Notes under the pieces: model-generated
Databases searched by the model: none
What the model saw: the letters and a program-made list of their open reading frames with translations, nothing else
Told to the model about the DNA's origin: nothing
NCBI GenBank assembly: GCA_009192285.1
Contig: WBVU01000003.1
Coordinates: 3,937,973 to 4,001,972, forward strand
From: Morchella semilibera
Lineage: Eukaryota; Ascomycota; Pezizomycetes; Pezizales; Morchellaceae
DNA length: 64,000 nt
Direction: 5' to 3'
In this document: positions 13,507 to 47,616 of the stretch, one piece after another
Layout of the letters: the number at the start of each line of letters is the position of its first letter
Position numbering within the stretch: position 1 is the stretch's first letter
Made by a program: the position numbers and the translations under genes

Positions 13507-13571
13507 GTACTACGGGTGTAGCTAGGGGTAAGTTACTGCTGACAACAGACTTACCCCTACACCCGTAGTAC
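13507..13571. repeat. Hairpin element, family H1 copy A (65 bp)
   Basis: Near-perfect palindrome: the left arm GTACTACGGGTGTAG(CTA)GGGGTAAGT pairs with the right arm ACTTACCCCTACACCCGTAGTAC around a short loop. The same arm sequence recurs at 31184, 36201 and 47306. This copy has a 3-4 nt insertion in its left arm. GTAC stands at both ends. No coding capacity. Confidence 0.85.
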
Positions 13572-15766
13572 TGCGCACTTTTACGATCGATGAGGCTAAT
13601 CGATTGATCAATTAATTACCAACCTAAATGCAGTTCTTCACGCACGCGCTAAGTGTTGTACTCTATTGCCGCAGACGCACAGTAGAGTACTACTCTACTA
13701 CTCTAGAGTAGGCTCCACGTCGCGCCCCAGGACCTGTCTAAAGCAGATTGGCTATGTTTTCCCTTAACTGCTTATCCAACCCCAAAATGCGCCAACCATA
13801 CATGTACATGCAACATCCAAATACATGTAATTAGATACGGGCTCCTGCTATATATCTCGCGATCAAAAGGCACTATTTTCTTTAAACTGTAGAGTGGAAC
13901 GCCTGACAACTTACCTCTTCTACATGCCACACAACTACATAAGGACAGTGAGGCAGCTATGAAATCAAAGACAATTCAGCCCCCGGGCACTAAACTCAGT
14001 GGTCCGTCGACATGATCAGCATGACAGCACTGCTCGTATCGACATTTGAAACAAACAACAAAAGCAAAGTGTAACCACTAGGAGAAGAAGATACAGGTAG
14101 TCGCCGATTGGGGTACATATACTCTACAAACTCTTCCAGAACCCATTGGCGTGTTGGGCATGAGCAGATTCACCTGAGACAAAACCTTGTATTTACCAAA
14201 AGCCTACCAAAATTTGTACCATACCATTCAACGCGTGTTGGAGATGAATAACTGGTCTCCCTTGTGGGGACTTCAGCTATAAACGACTCCGATCTCGAAC
14301 TTCCCCCTTTCTAACAGAAAGGTTGAAAGCTACGAGCCATAGACACACATTCCGTTTCGTTAATTTACAAATAAAATCGCACTCAGTTTATTCCGGCTGG
14401 CTTCCAAGGAAATAACATAACACTAGCAGTGGCCACCCCACAACCACGAGTTATATAACGAACGCTACTAAAGTACATTATAATATCCAATTATAGAACT
14501 GTACCCAAAAATCTATTTGATTATTGGGGGAACAGCGGTAGACGGGGGAACAGTGGCAGAATTTAGGGAACAGCAGTAGACTAGAGGGAAGTTACAGACA
14601 TATATATCTAGTGGCCAGCTCTAGTGCTAGTGACTAGGTCGTGAGCGCGAGTTGTAATTTCTTTTAGAGGGGTTAACTAGCTCAGTCTACCACAGTTTTC
14701 GATACTGAATCTTCCAAAGTATCCCTTCGTTGTGCTGTCAGGCTGCTCAGCATACTTTTGATAGCGCGGGAAAATGCACTGCTCTGCTCGGCCAATCCCT
14801 ACTCTAGGCGAGTACATGGGCATACCAAATGATATGAAAATATATGAAACTTCCTGCCCACGCAATTCTTCCCGGGGTCGTGCTGCGATTCTGGTAAAGC
14901 CTGTCGTTAGCCAGTGAACAATTAGGTGGTTGATATCAGATCGCGATGTAGTTACTACATATGTATGTTCAAATGATATTATCTGAAGCCGGTTTGAAGA
15001 ATGCTGAATGCAAAAGATCCGGTGTCCTTTGCCTTGTTTTCTTGCATGATAAACGAATTTGCGATTTTCGTCAAAATACTCTTAGCTCACATCCTGTGTA
15101 CAGGGCCGTACTTGCGGCAGACAAGGATTGCTGGATAATGCAAGTTTTAGCGTTGGTGAACTAAAAACCTGCGCTGTCCGGTACTTTGCGAGTACTCACT
15201 ACGCACGTCTCGGTAGGGTCCACGCTAAGTGAATTCTGGAACACCATAAAAGTGGAGTTTTGACAACTGAGTACAATATTTTCGGACACCATTCCATATC
15301 ACCACCAATCCTCACAAAGCATCTTTGCACAGCACCTGGACTTAAATTATCGTCGCGAAGCAAACCACACCAGAAAACGGCAAAATCACGCATTTCAAGA
15401 TCTAGTATTATACAGATTAACTATTACAAACCTTATCCAGAACCCTAGTTGGAATCCAAAAATAAGAATGTTTTCAAAAAAAAAAAACACGCCAAGACCT
15501 CAAATCTGTAGGTACAGGGTCCCGGCCCAAATCTCAAATCTCGGATTTCAAAGTGGTGCAGCTCCTGAAACATTTAGTAAAAGGGGGGTATTATAAGATC
15601 ACTTATAGCATATCTTTCAGTCTTGATAATTTCATGGCTCGATTAAAGGAATTGGGGGCTGGGCAAGCTCTCTTTTTTGCCAATTTTGCTGTGTTTTAAT
15701 TTTGGTGCGGCGACGATGACTTTTCCCATATGCGAAATTTTACCTTCCAGGGGCGGGGCTACAAAA

Positions 15767-15851
15767 GCACCGTTGGTGCAGGGGTAGGTAGCATAGTTGC
15801 CTTCCATTAGATTGTGAGCAACTGGGAGGGGTTAGAGTCCCTTGCGGCGCA
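15767..15851 (+). tRNA. tRNA-Gly(TCC)-like sequence, possibly a pseudogene
   Basis: The 5' end GCACCGTTGGTGCAGGGGTAG resembles fungal tRNA-Gly. The anticodon stem GTTGC/GCAAC encloses CTTCCA, giving anticodon TCC, but the loop is 17 nt instead of 7, so either a roughly 10-nt intron or an insertion is present. The T arm AGGGG-TTAGAGT-CCCTT pairs but has TTAGAGT in place of the usual TTCGANT. The acceptor stem has one mismatch. These deviations make a decayed gene or a tRNA-derived repeat as likely as a working tRNA. Confidence 0.4.
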
Positions 15852-16562
15852 TAGTGTTGACTTTTTGTACTTCTCGCTATTCATATAAACGCCCCCGATA
15901 CAGTTTTATTATTGAAATATCCTCAGTTCATGGGCGGGGTAGTTCCTTTTGCGAGACGTCAGAGGGAGTTTCGGGCCGGATCTTCACACGCCATTCCTTC
16001 ATGCACAGACAGATGCACCTTGTTGCGTGAAAGATGGCCTTTCTTTTCCTCTACCTCACTTTCGGGACGAGACTTCTCCGAGTGACAGTGTTTCGGGCCC
16101 TCCTGGCCGCTTGGTCCCACGGTCAATGCACAATGGACCGCTGTAGTGGCGTTGTTTACGGAGCACGCTGCCGAAGGACGTTTTCCATATCTCAAGAGTC
16201 AGGGTTTAATCTAAAAGTACGGGGCGATAGGTGGCGGCGAGAGGTAAATCAGCCAATGGGACGGCTTAGGTTTGATCTTTGAGCCCGTGCTGTTCTTTTA
16301 ACGACTTTCCATGCTGAGCTGCTGAGCGCTTTTCATAACCCCGGTTGATGTGGTGTTGTTCCTTTCAAGGCCCGTGCGGTAGATGCATATCTGCTTCACG
16401 ATATATCACTCGGACATCGTATAACTGCATGTATTTCTGCCTACATTTATTTGAAAAGCTATGTATCGCACACCATTCGACCCCAATACATGTAGTTTTA
16501 AAAACCAACTACCCGCCAGATTCTCAAGAAAATGAGTTTACAAACCCCCTTACAGAAACGAT

Positions 16563-17485
16563 CTAAGCATAGCAAGTGCTGCGCCTGGTGACAGTAGAGT
16601 CGTATTTGCAATAGGTTCCATCATTCCCGGCACCAGTCTTGACCGGTTCATCGCCATCGTCGTTACCGGTGTAACGCTGACAGATGTCAGTGACCTCGGA
16701 GGTGCAGGTGTTAGAGATCGTGGCGGTATCTATTTTATTATATCAGCCATCCTGCCTGCATCAACAAACCAAGGTAGCCAGAGCGGTAAACCCACCTCCA
16801 TAGTTGGTGTTGATTCCAGCAAGAGTACCTCCATCAACAGCAACAACGCCGGAGGCAACAAATGTTCTCTTGTACTGAGTACCGCAGTTTCCGCAAGAAC
16901 GGTAAAGCTTTCCAAAGTCCTCAACGAAAAAGTCCTGAACATTGACGGTACCACCGCCATTGTGCTGGATAACTGCAAAACTGTTAGCCTCGCGGAAACC
17001 CGCTGGATGGGCAGGACAGCTAGCATACCTTTATCGCTAGCGTGTCTGGCTCCACCGCCAATGATGTACGAAGTGCCGGAGGTCTGCTTAATCGACAAGG
17101 CGTCTTCACAGACATCCTCCCACCACACATTCTGGATGGTGCAAGGACCCAAGCAGTGAACACCCTCGGTCTGGGCAGATCCAATAATGGCGTTCCTAAG
17201 AGTGGCCCCGCTCGAAAGGATAAAGACGGCGTCGTCGTCACCGCCCTCCCCCTCATTACAACCGTCTGCAGGAAGATTCGATTAAAACACACCCCTGGTC
17301 CTGTAGAATTGGTGCTACTCACTGTTTCTATTAAAACGCTTCATCCCACCATCGTATGTTCCAGAAACAGATATCGGAGAGGAAAGGGTAGTGGAGCTCG
17401 CTGCGCTGGGGAAGACAGTAGTGGCAGCGGCGGAGACATATGCCACAAGACCGGCGGCGGTGACAGAGCTGATGAGAAACTTCAT
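16563..17485 (-). CDS. Secreted pectate lyase, family PL3
   Basis: Cleaves pectate/polygalacturonate by beta-elimination outside the cell. Exons 17485-17323, 17265-17029, 16972-16796 and 16729-16563 join in frame to 247 residues, the usual PL3 size. The signal peptide is [19 protein letters not shown]. Family signatures are [98 protein letters not shown] and [12 protein letters not shown]. The acidic cluster DVCEDA is the likely calcium/substrate region. The many cysteines suggest disulfides. Intron 2 uses the second of two nearby AG sites; only that choice keeps the conserved HASDK-VIQHNG junction. The ATG at 17485 begins the signal peptide. Confidence 0.93.
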
Positions 17486-17575
17486 ATTGGGCAATGGCGA
17501 GTGAGTACGGGATTGAGAGGACAGTGGTGATAGTGGGTGGTGGTGAGAGATTAGAACATGCGGAAACCCCAAAGG

Positions 17576-17583
17576 CTTTATAC
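17576..17583 (-). promoter_or_regulatory. TATA-like element of the pectate lyase gene
   Basis: Minus-strand GTATAAAG lies about 92-98 nt upstream of the ATG at 17485, in the usual place for a TATA box of a secreted-enzyme gene. Confidence 0.4.
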
Positions 17584-20500
17584 GAGTCGTCCACAGACTT
17601 TGGAAGCTATGAATGTGCGCATTGACCTGTGATGAGTAGGACCCACAGTGAGATTAACCTTGAAGATAATGGCTATAGCTCATTTCATCCGTCAACTCGA
17701 ATTCGCTCCCAATTATGCCGAGGAGTATACATACCGGACGGGTGCCCGCGCATCGTGGAGTGTTTGGAGGTGGCTGGTTCTTGTAGCTACATGATTTCAA
17801 AAGTGTTGGCAAGCTTATTCTCTGGTGTTACTGTTATATCACGAGGTTATAATGTCAATCCCCTGTACGTCGGGAATTTCTTCACCGTTCCCTACCGTTT
17901 CCAAGACACGTTTGTGGGGATACAAGGATTGGGTGACCCTTTTTACCCCGCAATATATTACCTTATTTCAGGGCCATCCAGCGTGGGCCTGGATTCAAGG
18001 GTATATCATATAAAATACATGTATATCCCATGTTGTGTATTTAGACTTTAAAGGGTGGGTCGTAGTGCTGTCATCTGCAAGGCGTCGATCTTGGCGGCCG
18101 GCAATTTATAAATCGTGCGTGTAACTTAGTAAGAACTTGCTAACACACCCATTGATAAGTGCCCTTCAAAGTGTGGACTTGTCGGTGATTGCACTAACTA
18201 GTATCCGAGCCAATTGATATCCCATGGATCAAGGTTCCGGAACTTGAGTAATCATGATTGTTATTTTATTACACTAAGGAGAACGTTATTCTTTCATGGG
18301 ACTTGTTTTGCCCGCCAACAAGAGCTCTGTGTATACCTACACGTAGCCAGAAGACCAATAGCACGTGATAGAAGGCTATTGCGCATCTTGAACGATACGA
18401 TTCACACAGAATCTCAGATATGATCTTGAGTCGCTAAAGAAACACAAGTGTATAGAGGTATTCCCATACCGCTATCCGGCCCCAAAACTAGAGAGTGGAT
18501 ATCCTATGTGTACCCGTACTTAGCATCTTCGGTATGGTCTTGGGAAAAAAAATCACCCCCCCCATATGCTCCACCTAATATAAAGGTATCCCAGGGAAAC
18601 CTATATTAAAGAGGCAAAAACGGTATTTTTGACGCAGTGAAACTAGCTAAACACACCTCATTTACTCGGCATCAATAGTCCGAGAGGGCGCCCATAAATG
18701 ATGGTTATTGCTTAAAGCTCCCGATTATGAGATGGATAGAATAGAGAGAGTCGGCCGGAATTGAGCGAGTGGCGCACTAACTCGCGCACCAAACCGCCGA
18801 GATTGAGTGATCGACTATGACCGGAGGTCTGTAAACGTGTACCTACATCTGCCTAGTACTGGTCAATGGATTTTAGAGTGCCGATTAGTAATAGAATTTT
18901 ATGTTAGCCCCCCACATGTGAGTCTGTTTGCGCACTTTAGTGTATCCAATATATGCATTACCATAAAACGGGAACCCGGCCCGCCTGAAACAGTTGGAAC
19001 TCTTGGTACAGTAGGCCATGTCACATGAACTTTGGTATGATAAGAAAACAGCGTGAAACCCAACTACATAAGCCCCGTGTTTTCCTTATGCTCTCCATAT
19101 TCGGAGGGTTAACAAGCTCCGGTAACTTTCGTGTTGGAGACCTATTTGATTGAAATTCAGCTTCTGACTTCGATACGCGTTTCCTTTGTCAAGACATACT
19201 ACACCGTGTCTTAACCGGTTAATATACTCAAGCAACAATGTTTGTATGCTATAATGGGTGCCTTTGGGGTGAAGTCCATAGTTTCCCTCTAGTCGAGTGT
19301 GTATAAGGCAGTGATGAGAGTTTATTGCCAGTTTAGGATTCCTGGGATTCGTTTGGGTCTATTGAGGGAATCCGATTCCAGAAGCGGGATCGGACCGTCC
19401 GTCAACCTCCATACATCCGCAGCCAGGCTACTCCGCGGTGAATGACTCCGGCAGAGTATGATTTATCAAACTTAAAATATGGTATGGAGGCCTCAACAGA
19501 ATGCGAGTTGTCATTCAGCTATCGATCTAGGCATGTACCACACGATTGATGTGACTAACACGCTATGATTAGAAAGGCCCGTAGATAGACTGCTTTAAAT
19601 CTGTTTCAAAGCATATTTACATCTTCCTGAAGGACGACACCTGATTTTTAAAAATCAAGACATAGTGTATATATAAAAATTTAAAACTGTTATACACTCA
19701 CATTATTAAAAGTATTCCAGTCAGTGTTAGACAGGCTTTTATATCGACGGCCAGCAGCTAGTGACGATTTACTAAGCCGAGGGAAGCCTTAACCATATGG
19801 TAATTAACGCTGAACTGAGCCGGCTGCGAGCTTGTGAAGACTGCGGGTCATCCGAGTCCATTCACGTAAGCTTGAATTTCCCTAATAGGCCCGAGCAAGT
19901 GAAACTCTGTCGTGGTGAATGGATATCCTAACGACACAGGGTCTGAGAGAGTGGGAAGTCGGTTAATCGTGAGGTTGCTATACTGCTGGGCCTTAGTAAT
20001 GTAATGTCAGTAATCTACTGCGTTTCGCGCGAGTACAATTACATTTATGAAATGAGCTATAGCAGGAGGATGGGTGGTGGTGGAGATGGGGTCAAGAGAT
20101 AGAAGGAAAGCACCGAGAGAGGGGGCAGGTCGAAACTGCGCGTACCTACATGCGATTCCTTGATGCGTATGTCAATATCATCTCTTTAATAAAGAAACTT
20201 CAATGAAGGGTACATACATCACGTAGTATCATTGCCTTATCCTTATTGTTAGAGTAGGTACGTCTTGGTACCACCGAGATGGGCTAATGTTCAACCTGGA
20301 TTTGCAAGCGTTGTGTAATCTGGTAATCAGCAGCAAAACTCTAAGCTCTCGGTTTGGTTGGCTCGGTTACGCTGTGCTAAACCTCTTAAGTACTAGTGGA
20401 TCGGGTACGCGACCTCCATGTGAACCCTGCGCTAATCTCTCGGGCGGGAGTGACCTTTTTTCACGTGTATCAGGGACCTTCACGTGACGTCTAGTGGATT

Positions 20501-20932
20501 TCCCGGCCGACAAGCTTTCTTCCTCTCTCAACGTCGAGGGTAGTGTAGATGGATTTATAAGGCGCCGGATAGTTTTTTCATACCGACCTGGAGCTCAATC
20601 TCTCCGTACTTCTATTTTACTCGTTCGATTGGTTTATGCTCGATTGGTTACAGGTCAAACCGATGGCCGAATACAGCTTATAGACAAGGTTACCAATTGC
20701 AATGTACATGTATGCAAGACAATGTATCAGTAGGGCGGGAAGAAAGAAGCGATACAGCTGCACTAGTGATAGAATCTTAATTTCTGATAACTGAAAATTT
20801 CATGTACTTATATCCGCTGGCTCCCCTTTCCCACAACCTACCACCACCACAACCATCACACACCTGCGCCCAAAGCTCGAGATCTTCATCTAATTGCCTC
20901 TATTGAGTTTTTGATCTTAGAAAACTCCCAAA
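17584..20932. other. Gene-poor region
   Basis: No gene could be supported over about 3.3 kb. Near 18574-18612 there is a hairpin listed separately. The right end, from about 20820, is rich in CCACCA/CAACC and leads into the FAD oxidoreductase gene, as expected of its promoter and 5' leader. Confidence 0.5.
18574..18612. repeat. Short imperfect palindrome
   Basis: CTAATATAAAGGTATCCC faces GGGAAACCTATATTAAAG with almost no loop. It could form a stem of about 17 bp with one or two mismatches. It lies in intergenic DNA with no nearby gene end, so a terminator role is unlikely; it may be a small foldback element. Confidence 0.5.
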
Positions 20933-22120
20933 ATGACCTCAAAGAACGTTGTTATCCTCGGTGCCTCATTCTCGGGCCTCCCCTTGACCCATTATCTTAT
21001 CAAACATCTCCCTGAAGAGTACACCGTTACGCTCGTCTCCCCATCCACCCATTTCTATTGGAATGTTGCTGCTCCCCGTGCCATTGTCGACCCCGAACTC
21101 ATCGGCAAGAACAAGGACGACCTTTTCATCCCAATCCTTTCCTCGTTCGAGAAGTACCCCAGTGGACGCTTCACCTTTATCCAGGGAAAGGCCGTGTCCA
21201 CAAGCCCACAAGCAGATACCGTCACAATCAGAACCGTCAGCGATGACAAGTCACAGGGCGCAAAGGATATTAACCTCGAGTACTGTCACCTGATCGTTGC
21301 TACTGGCTCCTCCACTGCAGGTGGAGATTGGGCTTTCAAGGCCGCTGGCCAGGGAACTCATGTCTCTACTAGGGCTGCAATTGCAGCTACCAGGGACCAA
21401 ATTGCAGCAGCAGACCGTATTGTTGTTTCTGGTGCCGGTGCAACGGGTTGTGAGGTGGTTGGAGAGATTGCGTCCAAATACCACAAGTCCGGAAAACATA
21501 TCACCCTTCTCAATTCCGATACCGGACTTCTCCCAATAGCCCGTGCAGATGTTGGAAAGACTGCAGAAGGCCACCTCCTCAAGATGGGAGTCAATATTAG
21601 ACATAACGTCAAGGTTGCCTCTGAAACTAAGAAGGGCAATGTCACCGAGTTAGTTCTGTCCACCGGAGAAACCATCGAGGCTGATCTCCACATTGCCACA
21701 TGGGGTCTCATACCCAACTCCTCTTTCATGCCTAAGGAAACGCTTGACCAGGCCGGCTGGATCATAACCGACAAGTACCTCAGGATATCCACCTACCACA
21801 ACATTTGGGCTCTTGGCGATGTCACCCACTGGGGTAACCGCAGTGTCTCTGTTATCGAACCCCAGCATGTAGCACTCACCGCCAATATTTTGGCGGCAGT
21901 TGACGGCAAGTCCGAGGCGGCCTTCAAGGAGTACAATCACAAAAACGATCTCATCATGGTTGTCCCACTTGGCCCATGGTTCGCAAAGGCTACTGGTATC
22001 GCTTGGGGCTGGAAGATGTGGGGCTTCCTTGCTTGGGCGTTGAAGGGAAGAACATACATGATTGAGGCTGCTAGGCCTATTGCGGAGGGAAAGAGTACGG
22101 CTGGGAGGACGAAGATTTAA
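20933..22120 (+). CDS. AIF/AMID-type FAD-dependent NAD(P)H oxidoreductase
   Basis: A single exon of 395 residues. An N-terminal Rossmann motif is at residues 6-16 (VVILGASFSGL; a Ser replaces the usual second-loop Gly or Ala). A central NAD(P)H motif is VVSGAGATGCEVVGEIAS. The late FAD motif is NIWALGDVTHWG. This is the pyridine-nucleotide disulphide oxidoreductase fold without the CxxxxC redox pair, as in AIFM2/FSP1-like and yeast Aif1-like proteins, which reduce quinones or similar acceptors with NAD(P)H. The C-terminus (GPWFAKATGIAWGWKMWGFL) is hydrophobic and may contact a membrane, a feature of fungal AMID-like proteins. No mitochondrial leader is obvious. The ATG follows a pyrimidine-rich leader. 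Confidence 0.88.
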   Translation: MTSKNVVILGASFSGLPLTHYLIKHLPEEYTVTLVSPSTHFYWNVAAPRAIVDPELIGKNKDDLFIPILSSFEKYPSGRFTFIQGKAVSTSPQADTVTIRTVSDDKSQGAKDINLEYCHLIVATGSSTAGGDWAFKAAGQGTHVSTRAAIAATRDQIAAADRIVVSGAGATGCEVVGEIASKYHKSGKHITLLNSDTGLLPIARADVGKTAEGHLLKMGVNIRHNVKVASETKKGNVTELVLSTGETIEADLHIATWGLIPNSSFMPKETLDQAGWIITDKYLRISTYHNIWALGDVTHWGNRSVSVIEPQHVALTANILAAVDGKSEAAFKEYNHKNDLIMVVPLGPWFAKATGIAWGWKMWGFLAWALKGRTYMIEAARPIAEGKSTAGRTKI

Positions 22121-22808
22121 ATAAGTTTTCTTTTTAGCTTTGGTGTTTCGGTTTCTTTCAAAACTTGTCCTATATCTCCTTTGTAAGGTACTCTATTAAT
22201 GACTTAATCTTGCACTATGTAGCTACATAATACGATTTTTCATTTTCAATTCTGCCTAAATGTCTTTGTGAGTGAGAACCGGTGATTCAAACTACATATA
22301 TGTAACGAGTGAAGCAACGTTCGTAGGGGTCGGGTGTATGCAATACCTTACCTCCCAGAATACCATAACACTGCAGTATAATGGCTGGAGTTCCGTATTT
22401 TTACGGTACCTATTGCATCCCTCTTTTGGTACTGTATGTATATGCATGTATGTAGGTCACCTATATCAGCACCAGCCGACACTGCTATTTTTTTTGATCA
22501 ATGTGTGTAGGCGTGTGTAGGCACCCCGCTCGTTTTAAAATCTTGAATATGGCACGATGAATATTACACAACTCTAAATTGATGCCACGTTAATTAAAGG
22601 CTGATAAATTACATGTAGCTATAAACCCACTTCTTATCTTGACTCAAACAAAAAAAAAGAAAGAAAAAACAAAGACACCAAAGGAATGAAATGTGCCAAA
22701 CGCCCGAATCTAAACCATATCAAAATATATCTCACACAAAGAATAGAACCAGACAAAAGGAATCATAACCCATGCTGAACATATATACTACATGACTCCC
22801 GCACCTCT
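22121..22808. other. Intergenic between two convergent genes
   Basis: 3' flanks of the FAD oxidoreductase gene (+) and the secreted-protein gene (-). AT-rich with one TACATGTA word near 22612. No gene or clear terminator was seen. Confidence 0.5.
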
Positions 22809-31091: not shown

Positions 31092-31183
31092 CTCTTATAG
31101 ATTACCCGCTTAGCGGGATGTTTGCTTAATAGCCGCTGTATGTGCTGATTGGGATTTTGTTTCTGGCGTTAACTGTGGTTTCA

Positions 31184-31269
31184 TACGGGTGTAGGGGTAA
31201 GTCTGTAGACAGTGGTTGTGGTTGCAACAGCAGTAGGTGTCTACAGACTTACCCCTACACCCGTAGTAC
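31184..31269. repeat. Hairpin element, family H1 copy B (about 84 bp)
   Basis: Exact arms of 28 bp: TACGGGTGTAGGGGTAAGTC followed by TGTAGACA, and the reverse complement on the right. The loop of about 26 nt contains GGTTGCAACAG, which is also in copy C. GTAC follows the right end; on the left the flank is CA, so the border differs from copies A and C. Confidence 0.88.
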
Positions 31270-34272: not shown

Positions 34273-36049
34273 ATGAGTCCCGTACATACACTTGTATCTC
34301 TAACTGAGGAGCTGAGAAATGACGATAAAGTGAAGCTTGCTGGGGTCGATGTGGATGGACAACTCCGAGGTATGTCTAAGCTCACGAATCTACAATGTGT
34401 TGCTTTCGAGTCATCAAACTTATTTTCCTCTAAGGGAAACTCATCTCGAGAAAAAAGTTTTTCTCAATCGCCGAATCTGGTTTCGGATTTTGTTCTGTAA
34501 TCTTTGGATGGGATATGCATGACAAAACATATTTTCGCGAGCTCCTTATATCAAACGCCAAGAACGGATACCGTGATCTTCTAGCGAAAATAGATCTTCA
34601 AAGCTTCAGAAGGATACCTTGGGAAGATGCCGGGGGTGACCATATAAAGGGTTCAAACGGCGTGCCATTCTTTTTGGTCACTTTTCATGACCCCGACTCG
34701 GGACAGCCGATCCCACCTTGCCCACGAGGGCTACTAGGGAATATTGTGAATAAGGTGGGAGAGAAAGGATGGAAAGCCATGGCTGGAGGTTTGACCCCAT
34801 ATCTTGATTTTCTGTTAGGATAACAGGAAGACTAATGCCAACCCCCCTCCCCTTCAAGCTGAATATGAATTTTTCAATTTCCAAGAGACTTCAAAAAGTG
34901 TCAAGGAGGGAGGTGGGACGGATCTGGAACATTTGACACCAGGGATGTTCGGGTATTCTCTCACAAGACCTGTACAAAACCAGGAGTTCTACTACAGTGT
35001 TTTTGATACATGTAAGGTCTTAAGAGAAGAACACCAACATACCAAGAACTAATGATATCTAATCTTTTCTTTAGGCAAAGATTTCAATGTCCCGATAGAG
35101 GGCTGGCACACAGAATCTGGTCCTGGAGTTTACGAGGCTGCTTTGGAATTTGGAGAGGTGTCCATAATGGCTGATCGAGCTAGTTTGTTCAAGTAAGTTA
35201 GCGGCGGATTCAGGACTCTGTTTGGCAAACACAGGAGGTCTAACTTTATTTATTTAGATATGTTGTCAAATCTTTGGGGTCCAAATATGGCATAATGCCT
35301 TGTTTCATGGCAAAACCAAAAGAGGGACTGCCTGGAAATTCGGGGCACATGCATAGTAAGGACTTTATCCCTCCACGAGATTTCTTTTGCCTGCATATGC
35401 GATACCACGAACTGAACTAAAGACCTCTATCCTATTAGTATCACTTGTTGATTCAGAGGGAAAAAATCTCTTTGCTCGGCCTGAATATGACGAAAGTGCA
35501 CCATATTCAGACGCATCCCACCTTTCTGACCTGGGACGTCACTTTCTTGCAGGCATGTTGGAAGGTCTCCCATCTATAATGCCCATTCTAGCACCGACAG
35601 TGAACTCTTACAAGCGCCTCGTTGAGAATTTCTGGGCACCAGTGACGGTGTCTTGGGGACTTGAACATCGTGCAGCTTCTATACGTCTCATTGCTCCACC
35701 AACAGCTTCGTCAAAATCTACACGCTTCGAGATCCGGACCCCTGGAGCGGATGCTAATCCATTTTATGTTTTGAGCGCGATTCTTGCAACTGGTTTGCGA
35801 GGGATCGAGAAAAAGATTGAACTAACTATTCCCCCTCTTGGCAAAGGTGATGAAACGGGGGGTGGTGAGCGTTTGGCAAGAAATTTAATGGATGGTGTCA
35901 GAAAAATGAGGGAGGATGGAAGTGTGGCGCGAGAGGTTCTTGGGGATGAGTTTGTGGAGCATTTCACAGGAACTAGAGAACATGAATGGAAGCTTTGGGA
36001 AGAAGCAGTAACGGATTGGGAAGTAAAAAGATATGTTGAGACAGTTTAA
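34273..36049 (+). CDS. Glutamine-synthetase-family ligase (gamma-glutamyl ligase type)
   Basis: ATP-dependent glutamate-amine ligase fold, 476 residues. Exons 34273-34369, 34435-34788, 34859-35011, 35075-35192, 35258-35355 and 35439-36049 join in frame. Landmarks: GFGFCSVIFGWDMHDKTYF, AEYEFFNF (metal Glu), GWHTESGPGVYEAAL (metal Glu pair), NSGHMHISLVD (His-rich nucleotide loop), NSYKRLVENFWAP (ATP/glutamate loop) and RIEIRTPGADANPFYVLSA-like RFEIRTPGADANPFY. It is longer than eukaryotic GlnII (about 360 aa) and resembles bacterial GSI-type and gamma-glutamyl-amine ligases found in fungi. It probably acts on an amine rather than ammonia, but that is inference. The divergent SDR neighbour fits a small catabolic pair. 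Confidence 0.88.
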
Positions 36050-36200: not shown

Positions 36201-36290
36201 GTACTACGGGTGTAGGGGTAAGTCTCCAGAACTACGGCCATGGTTGCAACAGGCCATAGTTCTGGAGACTTACCCCTACACCCGTAGTAC
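36201..36290. repeat. Hairpin element, family H1 copy C (90 bp)
   Basis: Arms of 39 bp with a single mismatch, starting GTACTACGGGTGTAGGGGTA and ending with its reverse complement. The loop ATGGTTGCAACA shares GGTTGCAACA with copy B. The left border sits directly after TACAT, so it reads TACATGTAC. Confidence 0.9.
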
Positions 36291-36612: not shown

Positions 36613-36677
36613 GTACTTGCCGCGAGAATAAGTGTAAACCGCACAATTTGGCGGAAACTTATTCTCACCGCAAGTAT
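36613..36677. repeat. Hairpin element, family H2 (about 65 bp)
   Basis: GTACTTGCCGCGAGAATAAG faces CTTATTCTCACCGCAAGTAT, with an inner pairing of CCGC and GCGG around a short AT-rich loop. Two mismatches in the outer arms. Unrelated in sequence to family H1. Confidence 0.75.
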
Positions 36678-36736
36678 GTGAAACCTTAAGCTTGCCAAGA
36701 CCTCAGATTTGCCTACATCTCAATACTCTCTTACAT

Positions 36737-36835
36737 GTACAGCGTCAGGTAACAAGTGATGGAATGCCCTGAGGTATACCAAATGTTGGTCACTGTGTTC
36801 CATCACTTATTACCTGCTGCTGTACTTATCTATCA
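36737..36835. repeat. Hairpin element, family H3 (99 bp)
   Basis: Arms of about 28 bp: GTACAGCGTCAGGTAACAAG on the left and the complement of GTACAGCAGCAGGTAATAAG on the right, then GTGATGGAA on both. About three mismatches, loop of about 43 nt. Its left border lies in TTACATGTAC. Confidence 0.8.
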
Positions 36836-37519: not shown

Positions 37520-39388
37520 TCCGGCACACTCTACCGCTCGAACCAGGATGGGGGCGAAGGAGCTATTGAGGGGCCTTTACTTTCTTCCCTACGCGGATAT
37601 ATCAGGTCTGCAGAAGTGGAAGAAGATAGTGACCAGCTCCGGCAAAAGTTACAAGAAGTTGTGAATTCTAGGTTGCTCAATATAACTAGTGCAACACACG
37701 AAGACCTGTTTGAATGCGAGGATTCAGAATCAGACGCCCCAAATATTGTTGGAGTACTGAGATGGATTTTAACTCCCGAGTTCAAACGAAACCATCGAGT
37801 TTATCCGACTCGTTCTCTGAAGGTTTGGGCTTTGGCAGTAATAATGGCCCAGCTTGGACTCGAAGTGGGCTCTGCAATGCACGTTATTTCCTCGGAGAAG
37901 GAATATGGGGACTATATCGACAATGTTGGCTATCAGTCAACATACCAAGAGGCTTTTCTTGTCACGGCGAGTGGCCTTCCTACCGACCCTGAAACCTTTA
38001 GAGGTCTCCTATTTCATCGAAACCTCGAATTGGTTCCATCCGATCAATTCCCCGTATAGCTTTTCGACATCTTAGTAACGGTGGTCCGGTCAATACAGTT
38101 CTGTCTGAAGTTTGGGACTTCACTTTCAACTATGTTCTTGATTTACTCAAGCCACCTCCACGGAGAAAAGATGAAGTAGACATTCTATTCACCAAAGAGG
38201 CCCTTAAAAGTTTCGAGGAAAAGAGTTCTTATGTACCTGCAAACCCTAGATTGACCGACACCTTACAATGGCTTACTCACGTCATATCTAAACCCCTACA
38301 GAAATTTCTGCCCTCCAAGTTCTCCCGGATTGAGGATATCTGGGTTATAACAAATTCAATTGGCCAATTTCAAGGCCTTACAGATGATTATGTCGATTTG
38401 CCTAAGGGCGACGATGCGGATAGCTGGTATGTGGCTAGGGCTGCTGTTTTGGCCACAATATATGCTCTCTGCAGTAGATGGCTTCATCAGGATGATAGTA
38501 TGGTAGATCTACTAGACACGGAGGTTGCCTTCTGCCCAGATTTCATTCGGCGGGGCAATCTAGCCCCATAGACTTCATTTACATGTTTTCACACAAAAGT
38601 GTTCTCCGAAAAAACGGCGTCAACCTGGACTGGTGGTTGGGAATTTGGTACCTGGATGAGGCATGATAGGTGGTTGCATTTACTGTATCTGGTTTTTCTC
38701 TGGTGGTACTGAAAGCAATGATATCAAAAACAGGCTTTCTAGCTCATCAACTCGTACACAATACCTCAATACCACAATACTAGGTTTCCAGAAGAACGGT
38801 ATAGTCATGATCCCGGATATCTTAATACATCCCTCGGCGGAACCAGCATCTTGGTTTAGATACTACCTACGTGTGGGGCAGGTACTCGACTTGCCGCTCG
38901 ACCAAGACGGATTTATATGCCACAGCAACAAATTTAATAGTCCTCAGACTAAGTCTAGTTTATCCGGAACAATTACGAGGTCATTAGAAAACAAGCCATC
39001 CGACGTACTCATACGCCTCGATGTGGAACCCTGGTGGGAATTTGACCCAGCCACCGTCATATTCCAGGTGAGAGTTGGCGGTATTGTTAAGGAAATATTC
39101 AGCCCCAAAGCCATCTACGAAAAGGAGATTTACGAAATGAAGCAGTGCGAGTGCCAGAGCCTCAACACATCTATGGTACAACTGAAGGAAGATGTCATGG
39201 TCTACCGTGTCTCCGAATATCTGTCCTGTAAAAAGGAAAAGAACCCTAAAAACCCCATAATCGTACAAACCGGCGGGGACCAGATAGTTTGCCTTGCTTT
39301 GTCCCCTCCGCGTTCTAATTGGAAAGGCTCAAGCTCATGTTTGAATTGTCTTAATTCTGATTATATTCGTTCCTTTTATGTACTCTAA
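37520..39388 (+). pseudogene. Decayed, 5'-truncated paralogue of the orphan gene at 27391-29712
   Basis: Translations in several frames match the 773-aa orphan protein in order: EGPLLSSLRGYI, YPTRSLKVWALAVIMAQLG, WDFTFNYVLDLL, ATIYALCSRWLHQDD, DTEVAFCPDFIRRGNLAP, a VGQVLDLPLDQDG block, DVEPWWEFD, CEC and IVQTGGD. The N-terminal third of the family protein is missing and the reading frame is interrupted several times, so no full protein is expected. It points the opposite way to the intact copy, with the SDR and ligase genes between them. The match runs to the C-terminus. An alternative is a set of unrecognised introns, but stops inside conserved blocks argue against that. Confidence 0.8.
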
Positions 39389-39761
39389 TTACTCACCTAT
39401 GGGATTTCCTTTTATTTTTCTTGCTTGACTGTCGGGACTATTTTTTATCTTTGGTGGCCTTTAGGCTTTAGTTGACTGGCTTTCCTACTTGGTTTGGTTC
39501 CTGTATACATATATATAAATCATCGTTTTGAATTCAATTGTTTTGTGGTTTTTCTTTCTAGCTGCATGATATATGATCATGTTATGTTCAATTAAAAGAG
39601 CAGATATTTCGGTACTTTGCTCGAGGAGCACCAATTACTTGTAAGTTGTGACTGAAAGGATTATGGTAGTTATAGTTTATCTGTACTGGGGGGACTTGTC
39701 TATCCTCATGAGTCTATGGCCACCCAAAACCCGCTACGGAGCATCCGCAAGCTAAGCAAAA

Positions 39762-40031
39762 CCTAGGGCCCGTTTGGGAGCCGTCTGAATTAAACGGAGT
39801 TACTAAAGCTTGAAGCTTCGTCCTGGTGAAAACCTTGTTCTGGGAAAATAAGTAGTGTTTAGTGGTCGTAGGCCCAGAAAACAACGTTAACCCCATGAAA
39901 CAGAGTTTTTAGATAGTAGCTTAGAGTATTTGCATAGTCTCTCAAACAAACTCCATCCTAAGATTTCTCCGTCCCCACTAAAGCGGGGCTTCCTGCGGCC
40001 TCGGCTCCCAAACGGGCGCCGGGCCCTTAGG
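39762..40031. mobile_element. hAT-like MITE, about 270 bp
   Basis: Terminal inverted repeats: left CCTAGGGCCCGTTTGGGAGC (then CG), right the complement of CCTAAGGGCCCGGC followed by GCCCGTTTGGGAGCCG, so the right arm has a small insertion. No coding capacity. The GGGCCCGTTTGG start is shared with 52650-52800. No certain target duplication can be called. Confidence 0.75.
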
Positions 40032-40280
40032 CAGGTACAAAACAGCCCCTTACAGCCCAGACCACTACCCAAGATCGATACCTATGGTATTGTACTCTAT
40101 GTACATAAAGTATTCATAGATCACATTTAAATAAAAGAAGCTGGGCTGGTTGCGCCACGAAGACCCCTCAGGTCTAAAAAAATAAGTTAACGCCGTGAAT
40201 ATAAACCCAAGATTTACAGTATAAACGAAAAACTCCCACAAACGCCAAGACCAACATCGCCAAGAAATACATGCAAGGAA

Positions 40281-40331
40281 TCGATCAGCCACAACATTGT
40301 CTAGCCCGACCTTAAGCGTACCCGCCGCAAT
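40281..40331 (-). repeat. Dispersed repeat R2, right copy
   Basis: Reverse-complement match of 31041-31091. It ends only 7 bp from the stop codon of the membrane-protein gene, so it may lie in that gene's 3' untranslated region. Confidence 0.7.
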
Positions 40332-40338
40332 CGAGTAA

Positions 40339-41199
40339 TTAAATCATATCTAGTTGCTGGGGTTTTGGTGTAGTTGGCGGTCTCGTTCCCACCGGTGTTA
40401 ATGTTTTTCGGTAGCTTTCATAGCTACTTCTAGTCTCGCTCCTATTGATCACACTAGGCCCAAATCTATCCTCGATTATAGCACTGGTTGTATCTCGAGG
40501 CCTCTCGTCGGGCTTTTTTGGTGGTGCCGTAGGCGCAAGACTTTCGCGGGAGTAGTTGTTTCCCTTTTCGAGATCGTACGGTGGGATGCCTGTGTATCCA
40601 TCCTCATGATACTTTGGCGAAGGTTGATTCCATTTCGCTGGGGATGTGAGATCTTTACTCTTCCACGCAGGAAAGTTGAGCTCCTTTTCTGACATTCCAG
40701 CGTGGGCGTAGGAGATTGTGGGTGCCTCCAACGACGCTTGGCCGGCTTGAGGGTAGTCATATGCTCGCTCGTCTCTTGGGTACTCATAATGTGGTTCTTC
40801 GGGAATTCCCCAGATGGAGTCGGTCGACTCTCTACGGGTATTTATGGAGTGGGATGCAGCACGAACTTTGCGGCGCTGGATCGCCTTTATGATGCAATGG
40901 GCAGCAAAGCAGACGAGTGCTAGAAACAACAGGCCACAGACGACTCCCAGAACGACGTACATCACGTTTCGATGATAAGATGGTGTTTTGTTTATTGAAA
41001 AGTTGACAGCGGGGCTGGAGGTGACGAAGTTTCCTGTACGAAATTTGGGGTCACGTCCTGCTAACCCGTGACTAAAATCGTTGGTGCGAGCTGATGAATC
41101 TAGAGAGCAAGCTGTAGGGACAGCGTGAAATAATGGTAGTAAAAGAGTGATTAAGCGAATGTGAAGGGTTAATGAACGGGGGCGATATAGAAGTGCCAT
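40339..41199 (-). CDS. Single-pass membrane protein with signal peptide
   Basis: 286 residues in one exon from the ATG at 41199. A hydrophobic N-terminal signal (LITLLLPLFHAVPTACS) is followed by a short ectodomain with a possible N-glycosylation site (NFSINK). One membrane span (VMYVVLGVVCGLLFLALVCF) follows, then a basic stop-transfer run (KAIQRRKVRA). The cytoplasmic tail of about 170 residues is rich in Pro, Ser, Tyr and charged residues (several YPRDERAYDYPQ-like and PPKKP runs). The layout is that of a type I membrane protein, perhaps a wall or surface sensor-like protein; I recognise no family. Frames upstream of this ATG have only non-ATG starts. Confidence 0.65.
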   Translation of the reverse strand: MALLYRPRSLTLHIRLITLLLPLFHAVPTACSLDSSARTNDFSHGLAGRDPKFRTGNFVTSSPAVNFSINKTPSYHRNVMYVVLGVVCGLLFLALVCFAAHCIIKAIQRRKVRAASHSINTRRESTDSIWGIPEEPHYEYPRDERAYDYPQAGQASLEAPTISYAHAGMSEKELNFPAWKSKDLTSPAKWNQPSPKYHEDGYTGIPPYDLEKGNNYSRESLAPTAPPKKPDERPRDTTSAIIEDRFGPSVINRSETRSSYESYRKTLTPVGTRPPTTPKPQQLDMI

Positions 41200-42672
41200 T
41201 AGTTTGAGAGAAATATACGATCTTATATTGAGCACGTTTCCCCTGCTGATAATAATAGAGTGTATGCTGCACTGCGCCTGTGCCTCTTGGATATTTGAGG
41301 ATCGATAATGTAAGGTAAGTTTAGAAACGATGCGTAGTTATCTATCTGCCAATATGTACTACTTTTGAAACGTCCGATTCGTGCGGACTGTACCTCTTTT
41401 GAACCCCAAGAAAATCGAGAGGTGATTAATATGACAAACCAGGAATGAGAGGTACCTCGGTGGAAGTGGAGACATTGTTTTTGAGAAAAATTTACTGTAT
41501 AGGTTGGCTGTATATCGTGTTGGAATTTTGCGCAATTGAATCAATACGATGATTTTCGGGGATGTGAGTACTAGCTTGTAATCTGGATGAGGTGTGGTTG
41601 TCGACCGGTTCAGTATCCGGTAGAGAGGCCCGGTCGATGCACGTGCCACATGGTCGTCGATGAACCTGGGGCTCAGATTGGGAGTTCTTGTGGCTTTGTG
41701 CAACGGCTAATTAAGGCTCGATCGGGCGCTACTAAGTAAGAATAATACATACGTACTACATGTAAATACACTTAACTGTAGCCGTCAATAGGAATGTCAA
41801 GGAGGTGTCTGCCTACTACATACAAGTACATACATCTTGCAGGTATATATTGATACACGAAAGTACCGAAGTTTCAGCCTTTGAATAATATTAGTGTTCT
41901 GCTGAGCTGCCATGATATCATGATCAGGAAGTACTTTATTCTCGAGCTCTGACAAAGAGAATCCCTTCTTACCGGTGACATATGAACCAGAGAGTGCGAA
42001 CGACAAAGTCAATATGCTTGTACCTATCACCTTCAATATATGCAGGCTTCTATGATCAAATTATAAGACCACAGCTGGAGTGGTCGCTTTGGTGGCTATA
42101 GCCAGTCCAAATAGCCTTCGACACAGTTTCTCACTCGGTGGTACCTCATCACATCACTGAGAGGGCTTCTTTTTGGGAGTACATGTAACTAAGTTGTGTA
42201 GTTGCGTCGGCGGTCTAGAGTACACGAAAAGGTAAACCTGGGTCTAATTGGGTTCGGGAGAGGATTGGTGTCTGATGTCCTCCCGGTCGAGGCTTATGCG
42301 GCGCGGGACCCGAAGCTTACAAGGACCCCGTCCTGTTTAACATGTATTCTCCGAACCTTAGTCACTTCCATAGATGTTCCTATCAGGCCAGGCGCCGCTG
42401 AGCTCTGGCAGCTCTGTGGGGTATCCCGAGGTTAGGGTAGGTTATGTGTGTGAGACCGCCGGAGACTGAAGGTGGTGGTGGTACATACATGTAGGTAGTC
42501 GTTGTCCTCGGTTCGGCCACGGGGAAGGCTACTGTCGGCTCCTGCCAACTCTCCCTCCACCCGCAATATTATTCACATGATTTGACCTCTTTCCTCCCTC
42601 GTTCTCCTTTCCCCGCATTCTACAATTATCATCAATCAATTGGTGTTTGTCTCCTACCTCATATTTTAGATC
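41200..42672. other. Intergenic region, no gene supported
   Basis: Lies between divergent genes (membrane protein on minus, methylcitrate dehydratase on plus). A pyrimidine-rich stretch at 42580-42670 is the likely promoter/leader of the latter. A short frame at 41800-42036 starts with a non-ATG codon and was not accepted. Confidence 0.5.
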
Positions 42673-44499
42673 ATGTCCTTTTTGGCACGTTCCCTGTCAA
42701 GGTCTGCTGCGGTCCCTCGTGCAGTTTCTCGTCGTGTTTCCCCCGCGCTCTGCCGTCAGATCTCAGCCCGTTCGTCATTCACACCAGCAGCATCTCAGAA
42801 ATCTATCATATCACCACGAGCATTCTCCACAATGTCCTCAAGGCAGAGCACTGTTCATGGAATTGTGAACCAGAACGAAAAGCCTGAGCCTGATCAGGTT
42901 CTCCAGGACATTGCTGATTATGTCCATAACTACGAGATTACTTCACCTCTAGCTGTATGTCCGCTCATCTTCTTTAGTTTTCATATTTCATCCCTTGTAT
43001 AATTCTAGATCTCCATGGATAATTTTTGGTGGGACTGAGATCGTGTTTGCTTGGGGAAAGCTGTTCTAATGAAAGTGGGGTAGTGGGAAACTGCACGTCT
43101 ATGCCTTATCGATACATTGGGGTGTGGTCTGGAGGCATTGAAGTTCCCGCAATGCACAGATCTTCTAGGACCTGTTGTGGAAGGTATACCTTGCATCCAT
43201 CTCTCTCAATTTCTTCAAACTAAAAAAAAAAAATCAATAGGCACCATCGTTCCAAACGGCACCAAGGTCCCTGGAACCCCTTACCAGCTTGACCCGATCC
43301 GCGGAGCCTTTAACATCGGTACTGCCATTAGATGGCTCGATTACAACGATTGTTGGCTTGCCGCTGAGTGGGGTCACCCCTCAGACAATTTGGGTGGTAT
43401 TCTCGCGGTGGCCGACTGGCTTGCCCGTACCAACAAGGCCAAGGGACTTCCCGCACCCAAGATTAAGGATGTCCTCGAAGCAATGATTAAGGCACACGAG
43501 ATCCAAGGATGTCTCGCCCTTGAGAACTCTTTCAACCGCGTGGGCCTTGACCATGTTGTTCTCGTCAAGGTCGCTACTACCGCTGTTGTCTCCAAGCTCC
43601 TTGGACTCAATCGCGACCAAACCATTGATGCTGTCTCACAGGCATGGGTTGATGGCCAGTCTCTTCGTACTTATCGCCACGTTCCTAACACAATGTCTCG
43701 GAAGTCATGGGCTGCCGGTGACGCTTGCTCTCGAGCTGTCAACCTTGCATTGTTGGTAAAGAAGGGGATGGGGGGTATCCCATCTGTCCTTACCGCTAAA
43801 ACATGGGGTTTCTACGATGTCCTTTTCAAGTCCGAGGGCTTCAAGTTCCAGCGTCCTTACGGTTCATACGTGATGGAGAACGTCCTCTTCAAGATCTCCT
43901 TCCCAGCTGAATTCCACTCTCAGACAGCTTGCGAGGCTGCCATGACTCTTCATGGTGAGCTTAAGCGTCTTGAGAAGACCACCGATGACATTGCCTCCAT
44001 CCGTATCCGGACCCAGGAAGCTGCGATCAGAATCATCGACAAGAAGGGACCTTTGAACAACTATGCTGATCGTGACCACTGCATCCAGTATATGGTTGCT
44101 GTTCCCCTCATCTACGGTCGCCTTACTGCTCAGGACTACACCGACGAGGTTGCTTCAGATCCCAGAATTGACGAGCTGAGGGCCAAGATGGAGTGTATAG
44201 AGGACAAGAGCTACTCTCTTGAATACCATGCACCGGACAAGAGGAGTATCGGAAACGCCATCCAGATCACCCTCAAGGACGGAACTGTGCTGGACGAGGT
44301 TGCAGTTGAGTACCCAGTTGGACACAAGTTCAGACGCTCGGAGGGTATCCCATTGTTGTTGGAGAAGTTTGAGAGACACGTCACTGGTCGCCTCGGAAAG
44401 GCGCAGACAGAGAAGATCATGAAGGCGAGTGAGAAACTAGAGAGCGTTCAGGAGTTAGATGTAGATGAGTATGTCAATCTCTATGTTACAGAGAAATAA
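42673..44499 (+). CDS. 2-methylcitrate dehydratase, mitochondrial (MmgE/PrpD family)
   Basis: Dehydrates 2-methylcitrate to 2-methyl-cis-aconitate in the methylcitrate cycle, which detoxifies propionyl-CoA. Exons 42673-42954, 43084-43183 and 43241-44499 join in frame to 546 residues. The first 50 or so residues are rich in Arg, Ser and Ala (MSFLARSLSRSAAVPRAVSR, then RVSPALCRQ), a typical mitochondrial presequence. Conserved blocks: ITSPLAWETARLCLIDTLGC, GAFNIGTAIRWLDYNDCWLA, WGHPSDNLGGILAVADW, SWAAGDACSRAVNLA, TWGFYDVLFK and SFPAEFHSQTACEAA. Exon 2 is only 100 nt; it uses TAG|TGGGAAACT as acceptor. Length and layout match fungal PrpD. No other methylcitrate-cycle gene is in the window. Confidence 0.94.
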
Positions 44500-45681
44500 G
44501 CGAGGCAGAAATAGCAGGGTTCTTTAGAATACAGTTATGTGTAAAGATGAGAAATAATCTTTCAATTCAATTATTCCTATCAGAAACAAAACCTTTATAG
44601 AAATTTCAATGGCAAGATTTTGTTATGTGTCAATTAGGCCTTTGCGAACAGTCTCCACCTTTTACTATTAAAGTACATGTACATACACGCTTTATCGGGC
44701 GGAATTATCCGAAAATTAACACTCGAAAAAATTGTGCTATATTATTGTTGGGACTGTTAGTACGCGTACGAGCCTCGTGGTTGCAGTACTAATGCTTGGC
44801 AAATAGCTTTCCCAAACTCGTTACTTAAACTCACCTCCGCTGTAGTATATAGCATCAATGATCGAGATTACATATAACTAGATGTATGTATATATATATA
44901 TATACAATGTTATATACCAGGCCGTAAACGGTTCTGCTAGAGGGGTTTTTTGTGAGTTACCTTAACCCCCGCTACGCATCAACGTATCAGCCAACATCCA
45001 ACACTGCAGCGGAGGATCGATCTCAACAAGTAAGCACATATACAGCTTCGCTACGCTTATAATCAACAAATTAGCCCTAAAGTAAGTTAAGGGTGAAGGG
45101 CTGAGGGGTGATGCTAATTACTGTGCGGATGTTATCCACAGTTTGCCGGACCTTCAGCACCGGTAGGATGGCAATTAGTCAATATTTATCAAACACCTTT
45201 TTGGGGGAGATTTACCTGGTTTTGGTTTAGCCTCATGGGGTTTTTTTATAGCCAGGATTCCCGAGGGGTATATGTAGCTTATCATAGCCTGGTTACATGT
45301 AGTTTATGGATGCTCTATATATATGTGTGTGTGTGAGTATAGATTCTGCTAACGTAGAACCGCCCCGGGACAATGGAACGTACTAATAATCATAAGATAT
45401 CGTTCGTTATATGGCTATATGTTTACTTATATAATATGTATACAGAGATGCCAATCAAAAAAGCCATAGATATTTAGGTTTACTTAGCCTCTTACATCCT
45501 TCAAGTATTTCGCATATCATAAATTGCATGCATGTAGTTGGTATATTATTCTTATCTCACGAATTTAATAATTAGATTATCCTCCGCCGGCTATCTTGGA
45601 GCACTCTAGTTCTGTTGCTAAAGGCTGTTGATATTCGTGGAATCCAGAACATCCCTGAGCAGCCAAGTACAAATGTGTGGT
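44500..45681. other. Intergenic, between convergent genes
   Basis: 3' flanks of the methylcitrate dehydratase (+) and pyroglutamyl peptidase (-) genes. AT repeats lie near 44886-44905 and a GT tract near 45327-45335. No gene was seen. Confidence 0.5.
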
Positions 45682-46563
45682 TTAAAGCTCCTTTTCATGT
45701 TTCCGTCTTACTCTCTCTGCCTCGGTAACGAAGGCGATAATAAACTTCTCGAGCATCCCTACCCCAGTTTTGATGCTATATGGGTCGTTTTCAGGGGGGA
45801 CATGCAGAAATAATACCCTCCTCGACGAGTGTTCGGCGCATTGTAGTGACGTGCGGAATATATACTCACATAGGTACCTGCCAGCATTGGTCGACTCGTG
45901 AAACACAAGCTGGTCTCCGGGGGTCTCCTCTGGCTATACCCGCCGCTGTGAGTATAAAAATTGTACCTACATCCCAAAGCTATGGGGCAGAAACATACCA
46001 CAATACCACAAGCATCCATCATTCCAATAATTCGTTCTACATCTAATTCTGTCTTATAAACCTGCCCTCCGTCCTCGTCCTCTGTAGCACTCTTTCCCGT
46101 ATCACCGGTTTTGTTCTCCATTTCCTTTTCTGGGTCCGCCTTTTTACCACCTGGGACCAGACCGTCAATATCACCCTTTACATATCCTTTCTCATGGGCA
46201 ACGGTCTCAATCTCATAGCTTCCAGGAAGCCCGACACCAATGTGAAGAATGTAGTCAAACTTTTTCTCCGCGTGAATCGATGGGACAAGGGTATCGATGG
46301 TTTCGTAGGCAACCCTGATAGGGACGGTGTGTGGGATTATGGTAATATCGTAGATATCGGTAGAAACGGAAGCTGATGGTAGGAAGGAAGATGTTATTTG
46401 CCAAGAAGGGTTTTCAGAGAACTTTCGGAACGGCTATATCGAATGTTAGCGACTTTTAAGGCTAGATGGAAGGCTAAAAACGAACCCCGAACCCGGTAAG
46501 ATAAACTGTGATGGGTTTCTTTGACGCATCAGAAGTGGTATGTGGAATGATTGAAGGAGGCAT
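45682..46563 (-). CDS. Pyroglutamyl-peptidase I (peptidase family C15)
   Basis: Removes N-terminal pyroglutamate from peptides; cytosolic cysteine peptidase. Exons 46563-46486, 46433-45999 and 45933-45682 are all phase 0 and give 254 residues. Landmarks: VYLTGFG joins PFRKFSENPSW, the classic TGFGPF start; IGVGLPGSYEIETVAH carries the likely catalytic Glu (about E102); STNAGRYLCEYIF carries the nucleophile Cys (about C193); LFLHVPPEND carries His (about H215). Between residues 115 and 155 an acidic/Lys-rich insert (KKADPEKEMENK...) lengthens it compared with bacterial enzymes of about 215 residues. For intron 2, the donor GTATGT with the acceptor GGGTATAG is the only pair that avoids an in-frame stop. 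Confidence 0.86.
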
Positions 46564-47616
46564 GATTTAGTAGCTGGCTGATAATTTGATATATATATAT
46601 ATATATGTTGACAGCTTTGACTATTTCGTTAAGATGGGGGGGCGCGGGGGGGGGGGGGGAGGGTAGATAGTGGAGATCGATGGAGATGTGCGATGCCGGA
46701 GATGTGCCATATATACATATTACCTGACACGATATTTACATAAAAGCAATTTGTAGGTATATACCCTGTCAAAGAAGAATAGAGCTTCCTAATACACGTA
46801 TGTAGCGTGTTTGTTTCTGCGGGGCAGGTCCCCATGGAGTGTGACCAGGGTAGCAAGTAGGGTGTCTAGCATGCTTATTTTTGTGCTACATGGCCCTAGA
46901 TGTGAGCGGGGCCGGAGCTCCAAGCACTGGAGCTGAAGCAGAACATACATACATCATGTGGGCAAGGTTATGGGTAACCATTTTGTAACATAGGGGTTAG
47001 GGAAATTCCGAACCTTTAATCTCATGGGATAGAAAGGCTTCATGCGTTACTACATGTATTATCGCTGCATTTAGACATTCCACAATGGAAAGATGACTAA
47101 GCCATCCCATAACAGGCACCAAGTCTATGTTCCTGAGGTAGTAGTACATGTAGTATCTATATAATATTTCCTTCCTGAATTCCCTTACGTTCACGCACAA
47201 ATTCTGATAGCAATATAGCTTATGACACCGGTATCATTGATATTAGACCCCCTGCTACCTCCCCCCCAAGCATACATGTATGTACTACATGTACATAAAG
47301 TACATGTACTTTACGCTTACCGGGTAAGTCTGTAGACAGTGGCCGTTGCCAGACTTACCCTACACCAATAGTACATGTGCGGTCCCACTGACAAACCCTT
47401 ACACTTTATCATTAATTAGGGATGGGATCACGTATCAGTCACATTGCAATTTCCTCGCATCAGCATACTGATATTGTTTAACACTGATCAACACTGTATT
47501 TTCTTTTCTTTTTCCTTACACACAGCAAGCAACCTTTCCCGACTTCCAACACTTCCTTCCTACACCTACCCCCCAAGCCACCAAACTAACTTTGTATATA
47601 ATTAGGGGAAACAACC
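46564..47616. other. Intergenic, with a G-rich tract and a hairpin
   Basis: Promoter of the pyroglutamyl peptidase gene on the left. A G-rich run at about 46635-46662 is nearly pure G on the plus strand and could form a quadruplex. An H1-related hairpin lies at 47306-47374 and several TACATGTA words at 47270-47310. Confidence 0.55.
47306..47374. repeat. Hairpin element, family H1 copy D (diverged, about 69 bp)
   Basis: GGGTAAGTCTGTAGACAGTGG on the left is shared with copy B; the right arm CAGACTTACCCTACAC is shortened and ends in ATAGTAC. It has lost several arm bases relative to copies B and C, so it looks like the oldest copy here. GTAC is present at both ends. Confidence 0.7.

Follow-up and report, generated by a model that had tools for sequence, protein, structure and literature searches.

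A dispersed family of hairpins in Morchella semilibera, very probably an 84-bp TA-duplicating MITE

Duplication of the dinucleotide TA is a hallmark of Tc1/mariner transposons. Among the closest described fungal systems are the mimp elements of Fusarium, which are non-coding, non-autonomous and bounded by terminal inverted repeats (TIRs), and the non-autonomous DNA transposons (MITEs) of Mariner-1/-8/-14_SS in Sclerotinia sclerotiorum (PMC4188875), which have the same three properties. The six Sclerotinia MITEs are 481-813 nt long and are reported to have ACGT ends. The hairpins analysed here are likewise non-coding, TIR-bounded and non-autonomous. Four of them lie in a 64,000-nt stretch of the Morchella semilibera genome (hereafter the window), and we found that they belong to a family that very probably consists of copies of an approximately 84-bp MITE, which duplicates TA and is presumably mobilised in trans. 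A single MITE family, some of whose members were copied recently, would thus account for some hundreds of hairpins in the genome.

All four sites in the window were read directly, and the sequences listed in the initial annotation are present at their positions. Its description fits three of the four (A, B and C), of which copies B and C, each about 84 nt long, are near-perfect hairpins. Copy B (31183..31266, plus strand) is a full-length member of subfamily S1 with the inner stem CTGTAGACA, and its DNA fold has a z of -11.9 with 0 of 200 shuffles equally stable; its left end reads TTCATACGGG, the usual GTACTACGGG form having been lost. Copy C (36204..36287, plus strand) is a full-length S2 member with the inner stem CTCCAGAACTA and a similarly extreme fold (z -12.8, 0/200); it is flanked by GTA and TAC and begins 155 bp past the end of an ORF (35387-36049) with a match to glutamine synthetase. 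These copies score 105.5 and 97.0 bits, respectively, against a family model of 32 members that includes both of them, so these two scores are not independent. Copy A (13510..13568, no strand assigned) is shortened to 59 nt and bulged by 4 nt, although it is still a stable hairpin (z -6.3, 0/200); it has TA on either side (13508-13509 and 13569-13570) and scores 42.2 bits on the minus and 40.4 bits on the plus strand. Copy D (47322..47360, plus strand) is instead a decayed, internally shortened remnant in which the inner arm part alone is recognisable, with a partial match of 21.4 bits (E 0.0042) and a weak fold at 47306 (z -2.3, 3/200 shuffles as stable). As the initial annotation had observed, copies B and C have GGTTGCAACA in common, while their inner arms differ and still pair. 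Protein matches in the window include But2, Bestrophin_2 and MmgE/PrpD, which point to a filamentous fungus.

Other hairpins were seen in the same window. At 8945-9044 there is a long hairpin (z -11) whose 33-nt arms are 94% complementary and whose ends are of the form TA-ACGTTTCCGAACACGACC. It may be a MITE of the pogo/Fot1 type, and a similar stretch adjoins one copy of the present family elsewhere in the genome (L110). The hairpin at 36737-36825 has ends TACAGCGTCAGGTAACAAGTGATGGAA that by eye resemble the TIRs of the DDE_3 transposons L066, L067 and L071, and it is likely a MITE of their family. A short inverted repeat at 36614-36676, starting TACTTGCCGCGAGAATAAGT, may be a further TA-flanked MITE.

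To gauge the size of the family, we searched the assembly (56.76 Mb, 23 contigs) with a 23-nt arm, allowing up to 3 mismatches. This gave 477 matches (248 + 229), and a reversed control pattern gave none, so the repetition is not due to chance. The initial annotation had staked its family on there being further copies in the genome, and these are plainly there; its count of four was a sample of a dispersed family whose number is estimated at roughly 240 if each copy has two arms. Three pairs of contigs (C9/C10, C12/C13 and C21/C22) look like near-duplicates by their parallel match positions, so the non-redundant number should be somewhat lower. These pairs look as if two haplotypes or nuclei had been assembled for part of the genome. 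No difference in insertion was seen between near-duplicate contigs for the perfect-arm copies listed on C12, as 5/5 were matched on C13. Exact inner-stem patterns occur 26 times for S1, 24 for S2 and 14 for S3, near-duplicate contigs being counted, and each of six haplotypes recurs unchanged at 2-5 sites. The family therefore has the high copy number and the homogeneous subfamilies, with identical copies observed at separate sites, by which MITEs are recognised.

We extracted 98 distinct copies from 157 loci and the window, and assigned 57 to S1, 19 to S2 and 22 to S3. The base unit is 84 nt long and runs from CTACGGG to CCCGTAG. It is bounded by CTACGGGTGTAGGGGTAAGTC and its reverse complement, and the TA on either side belongs to the target, outside the unit. 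These ends were observed directly, with 78/98 copies aligning within 3 nt of both, some of them with internal deletions. All three subfamilies have in common a base length of 84, the centre GTTGCAACAG or a close variant of it, and the outer arm CTACGGGTGTAGGGGTAAGTCT, whose eighth base is mostly G on one side in S2; their inner stems are CTGTAGACA in S1, CTCCAGAAC in S2 and CTGGCGACA in S3. The first 29 positions pair in the consensus of S1 and S3, as do 29 of the first 30 in S2, where pair 7 is a G.A mismatch. The element is thus short, non-coding and bounded by terminal inverted repeats, and the near-palindrome can be read as two such repeats meeting across a short middle. Two of the copies (L091 and L097) appear, on reading by eye, to have other MITE-like sequences nested inside them.

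The TA dinucleotide is found on both sides of 69 of the 73 copies that were aligned to both ends. No longer direct repeat recurred among them: a match over 8 bp was seen in one copy, and lengths of 3-7 and 9 bp gave no match. A G stands just outside the TA at 78/82 ends, a count made on imperfect arms only so that this base was not selected with them. Insertion is mostly within GTAC. We then searched for empty sites using the joined flanks of 36 of 50 candidate copies (17 + 19), and empty copies were found for two, L027 and L087, both inside other repeats; none was found for the other 34 flank pairs searched. Among the relatives of L027, 8 of the 11 fetched cross the junction uninterrupted, reading GTAGTAG in five, GTAGCAG in two and GTACTAG in one, while the remaining three comprise one with GTAGTAG and a deletion just before it (L167), one with a deletion over the site (L166) and one that aligns poorly (L168). 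In the case of L087, the junction is crossed by 30 listed hits, of which 10/10 fetched read TTCTGTACGATT, as against TTCTG-TA-CTACGG...CCGTAG-TA-CGATT in the filled site. As most or all of the fetched empty copies have a single TA and the filled sites have TA on both sides, TA is the duplicated target, which fits the IS630-Tc1-mariner group. We also considered GTAC as a 4-bp target duplication, with which most copies agree, but rejected it because GTAGTAG, and not GTAC, stands at five empty sites of L027 and the outer base is sometimes C. At two loci (L088 239-343 and L030 1580-1963), sister elements with TACTCGGGTGTGTAGGTAAGTGATC-type ends abut a hairpin copy, the TA at the junction being common to both; a search with the sister arm gave 31 matches.

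The presence of GTAAGT in the arm raises another reading, namely that the copies are introner-like mobile introns, since sequences of the GTAAGT type form the 5' splice consensus and the element contains both GGGGTAAGTCT and CTACAG. However, the element reads nearly the same on either strand, the two insertions with empty sites sit in other repeats, and 0/4 window copies lie inside the ten listed ORFs of at least 200 aa, and we consider this reading extremely improbable. On the MITE reading, the element would insert at TA, mostly within GTAC, with duplication of the TA, and would move by cut-and-paste through a transposase provided in trans, most likely one of the IS630-Tc1-mariner group.

The genome offers many candidate transposases, with at least 96 matches to DDE_1 and at least 69 to DDE_3, and several transposases of these types have TIRs that, read by eye, start after TA. 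An autonomous element with the TIRs of the family was not found at the 40 loci inspected (20/96 DDE_1 and 20/69 DDE_3, with about 1.5 kb on each side). With a limit of 5 mismatches, both arms were present at none of these loci, and at 6/19 mismatches they were present at L043 alone. The best TIR resemblances were modest, with p values from shuffling of 0.0055 for the sister MITE and 0.009 for the DDE_3 locus L078, uncorrected for 21 comparisons. The exact inner arms of S2 (77) and S3 (60) listed genome-wide were also paired over distances of up to 12 kb, which gave four far-apart facing pairs and no autonomous partner. The pair on C20 (665 bp) proved to belong to two distinct old hairpins that enclose a tRNA-Cys, the pair on C12 and its counterpart on C13 (134 bp) are copy L097, into which another MITE seems to have been inserted, and in the pair on C19 (9.2 kb) one arm is already part of a hairpin. 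An S2 and an S3 arm 111 bp apart on C5 were rejected as a distant pair, being two hairpins back to back. At L179 (1-731), a tRNA-Cys gene lies in the interval of about 620 bp that separates two old S2 hairpins.

The initial annotation had proposed that sequence which changes while pairing is kept hints at selection for the hairpin or at copying of one arm onto the other. Under the former, the hairpin itself would be maintained by compensatory change as a structured RNA, a small-RNA precursor or a cruciform, as might be suggested by its long and very stable stems and by inner pairs 22-28, which differ between subfamilies always on both sides. To compare this with change inside subfamilies, we counted only pairs that had not been used for fetching the copies, in 91 of the 98 (7 short ones were dropped). 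An earlier count (141 one-sided and 3 paired changes in 79/98 copies) was discarded as biased, its copies having been fetched by perfect outer or inner arms. Outer pairs 0-17, scored in 52 copies, had 35 changes on the left only, 38 on the right only, 4 two-sided and paired, and 1 two-sided and unpaired; shuffling predicts 2.3 paired changes, and 2 of the 4 observed are in the truncated copy L138. Inner pairs 20-28, scored in 66 copies, had 17 left-only, 18 right-only and 1 paired change, with 0.5 paired expected. The total is 108 one-sided against 5 paired changes, where about 2.8 paired are expected, in a count that lacks the old S2 copies L144, L149 and L152.

A recount without gaps also covered old S2 copies (L144 and L149 are present and L152 absent in its list of two-sided changes) and kept 46 of 57 copies, 11 being dropped for divergence or indels and L179 and L180 left out. 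It had 47 left-only and 36 right-only changes against 7 paired, with 3.5 paired expected, and 5 two-sided unpaired. Three of these 7 are in the G-rich decayed ends of L144, and the higher paired total stems partly from inheritance and decayed ends. Each count thus has slightly more paired changes than the mean of its shuffles, but not the excess of compensatory change that marks structured RNAs. All 22 outer pairs are kept in only 9 of the 41 copies of exactly 84 nt, and a search of the window with Rfam at the gathering threshold gave zero matches. Moreover, unpaired stem positions occur in 4 of the 6 multi-site haplotypes (13/18 copies), so mismatched copies jump, and a lineage with a G.A mismatch makes up 11 of 43 S1 copies. 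It is observed, then, that pairing in inserted copies is mostly lost through changes in a single arm, the arms decaying for the most part independently. One-sided changes and mismatched recent haplotypes argue against both selection for the hairpin and ongoing correction of one arm by the other; the former is strongly disfavoured, and we regard it as very improbable.

Differences between the subfamilies have another pattern. In the consensus, inner pairs 22-28 differ only on both sides at once, at 2 pairs between S1 and S3, 4 between S1 and S2, and 5 between S2 and S3, and the single outer difference, at pair 7 of S2, is one-sided. Repeated restoration of the palindrome by copying between arms, through hairpin-templated repair or template switching, would account for the two-sided inner differences, for a centre and left loop that look homologous, and for the occurrence in S2 of copies with beta arms on both sides as well as copies with alpha arms on both sides. 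However, there is no clear excess of paired changes in inserted copies, copies with mixed S2 arms and the S1 G.A lineage exist, and mismatched haplotypes are uncorrected at several sites. Repeated restoration is therefore rather unlikely, and arm copying, if any, was confined to rare founding events; this part of the initial annotation is not borne out on inserted copies and may apply at the birth of a subfamily.

It is also conceivable, if doubtful, that each subfamily was founded by an autonomous transposon of its own, the three being siblings that agree in their outer and differ in their inner TIRs. The DDE_3 transposons L062, L066, L067 and L071 do have outer TIR letters in common, and further inward they diverge from one another although the two ends of each still match. 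Against this, a single ancestor is indicated by the GTTGCAACAG that S1, S2 and S3 have at nearly the same offset and by their common base length of 84, and the inner arms of S2 and S3 gave the four facing pairs within 12 kb described above (C20, C12, C13 and C19).

The S2 copies themselves suggest how arms may change. Six hairpins (L143, L144, L149, L152 and both of those at L179) have the beta arm GGGGAAAG on both sides, with pair 15 paired, and L144 and L149 have a base change within it. Seven copies (L014, L023, L032, L142, L150, L151 and L154) combine one beta and one alpha arm, and others, including the one in the window, have alpha on both sides. From these sequences we infer that the outer arms of S2 were probably replaced one at a time, from beta to alpha, via mismatched intermediates, a direction suggested by the more decayed look of the beta/beta copies. 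Apparent left/right chimeras among the copies proved to be classification artefacts once their sequences were read. We offer, as a tentative idea in which we place little confidence, that new subfamilies are founded when arms are exchanged singly, in whole or in part, as from beta to alpha in S2 by way of mismatched copies that go on multiplying, and when the inner stems are re-templated from the other arm in the founder. If so, the palindromes would be rebuilt by replication or repair rather than kept by selection, and exchange of the outer arm would allow a subfamily to be moved by a different transposase. It is intriguing to consider the graded S2 series of old paired, mixed and new arms as a natural record of transposon ends changing while jumping, and the changing but pairing pattern becomes a testable question about the founding of MITE subfamilies.

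The hairpins are a new family of a known kind, that is, ordinary mobile DNA, and the family is not named in the fungal Tc1/mariner MITE literature that we searched (open-licence papers, queried without the species name). Guest of Neurospora crassa, a fungal inverted-repeat element of about 100 bp, is like it in kind and would differ in its short TIRs and longer target duplication. The REP or GTAG-tagged repeats of prokaryotes (PMC3733652) are likewise short palindromes present in many copies, tagged with GTAG at one end, whereas the present element has a fungal-looking host, is tagged at both ends and duplicates TA. Compared with the Sclerotinia MITEs of PMC4188875 (481-813 nt, ACGT ends reported), it is 84 bp long with CTACGGG ends, so that almost all of it is TIR.
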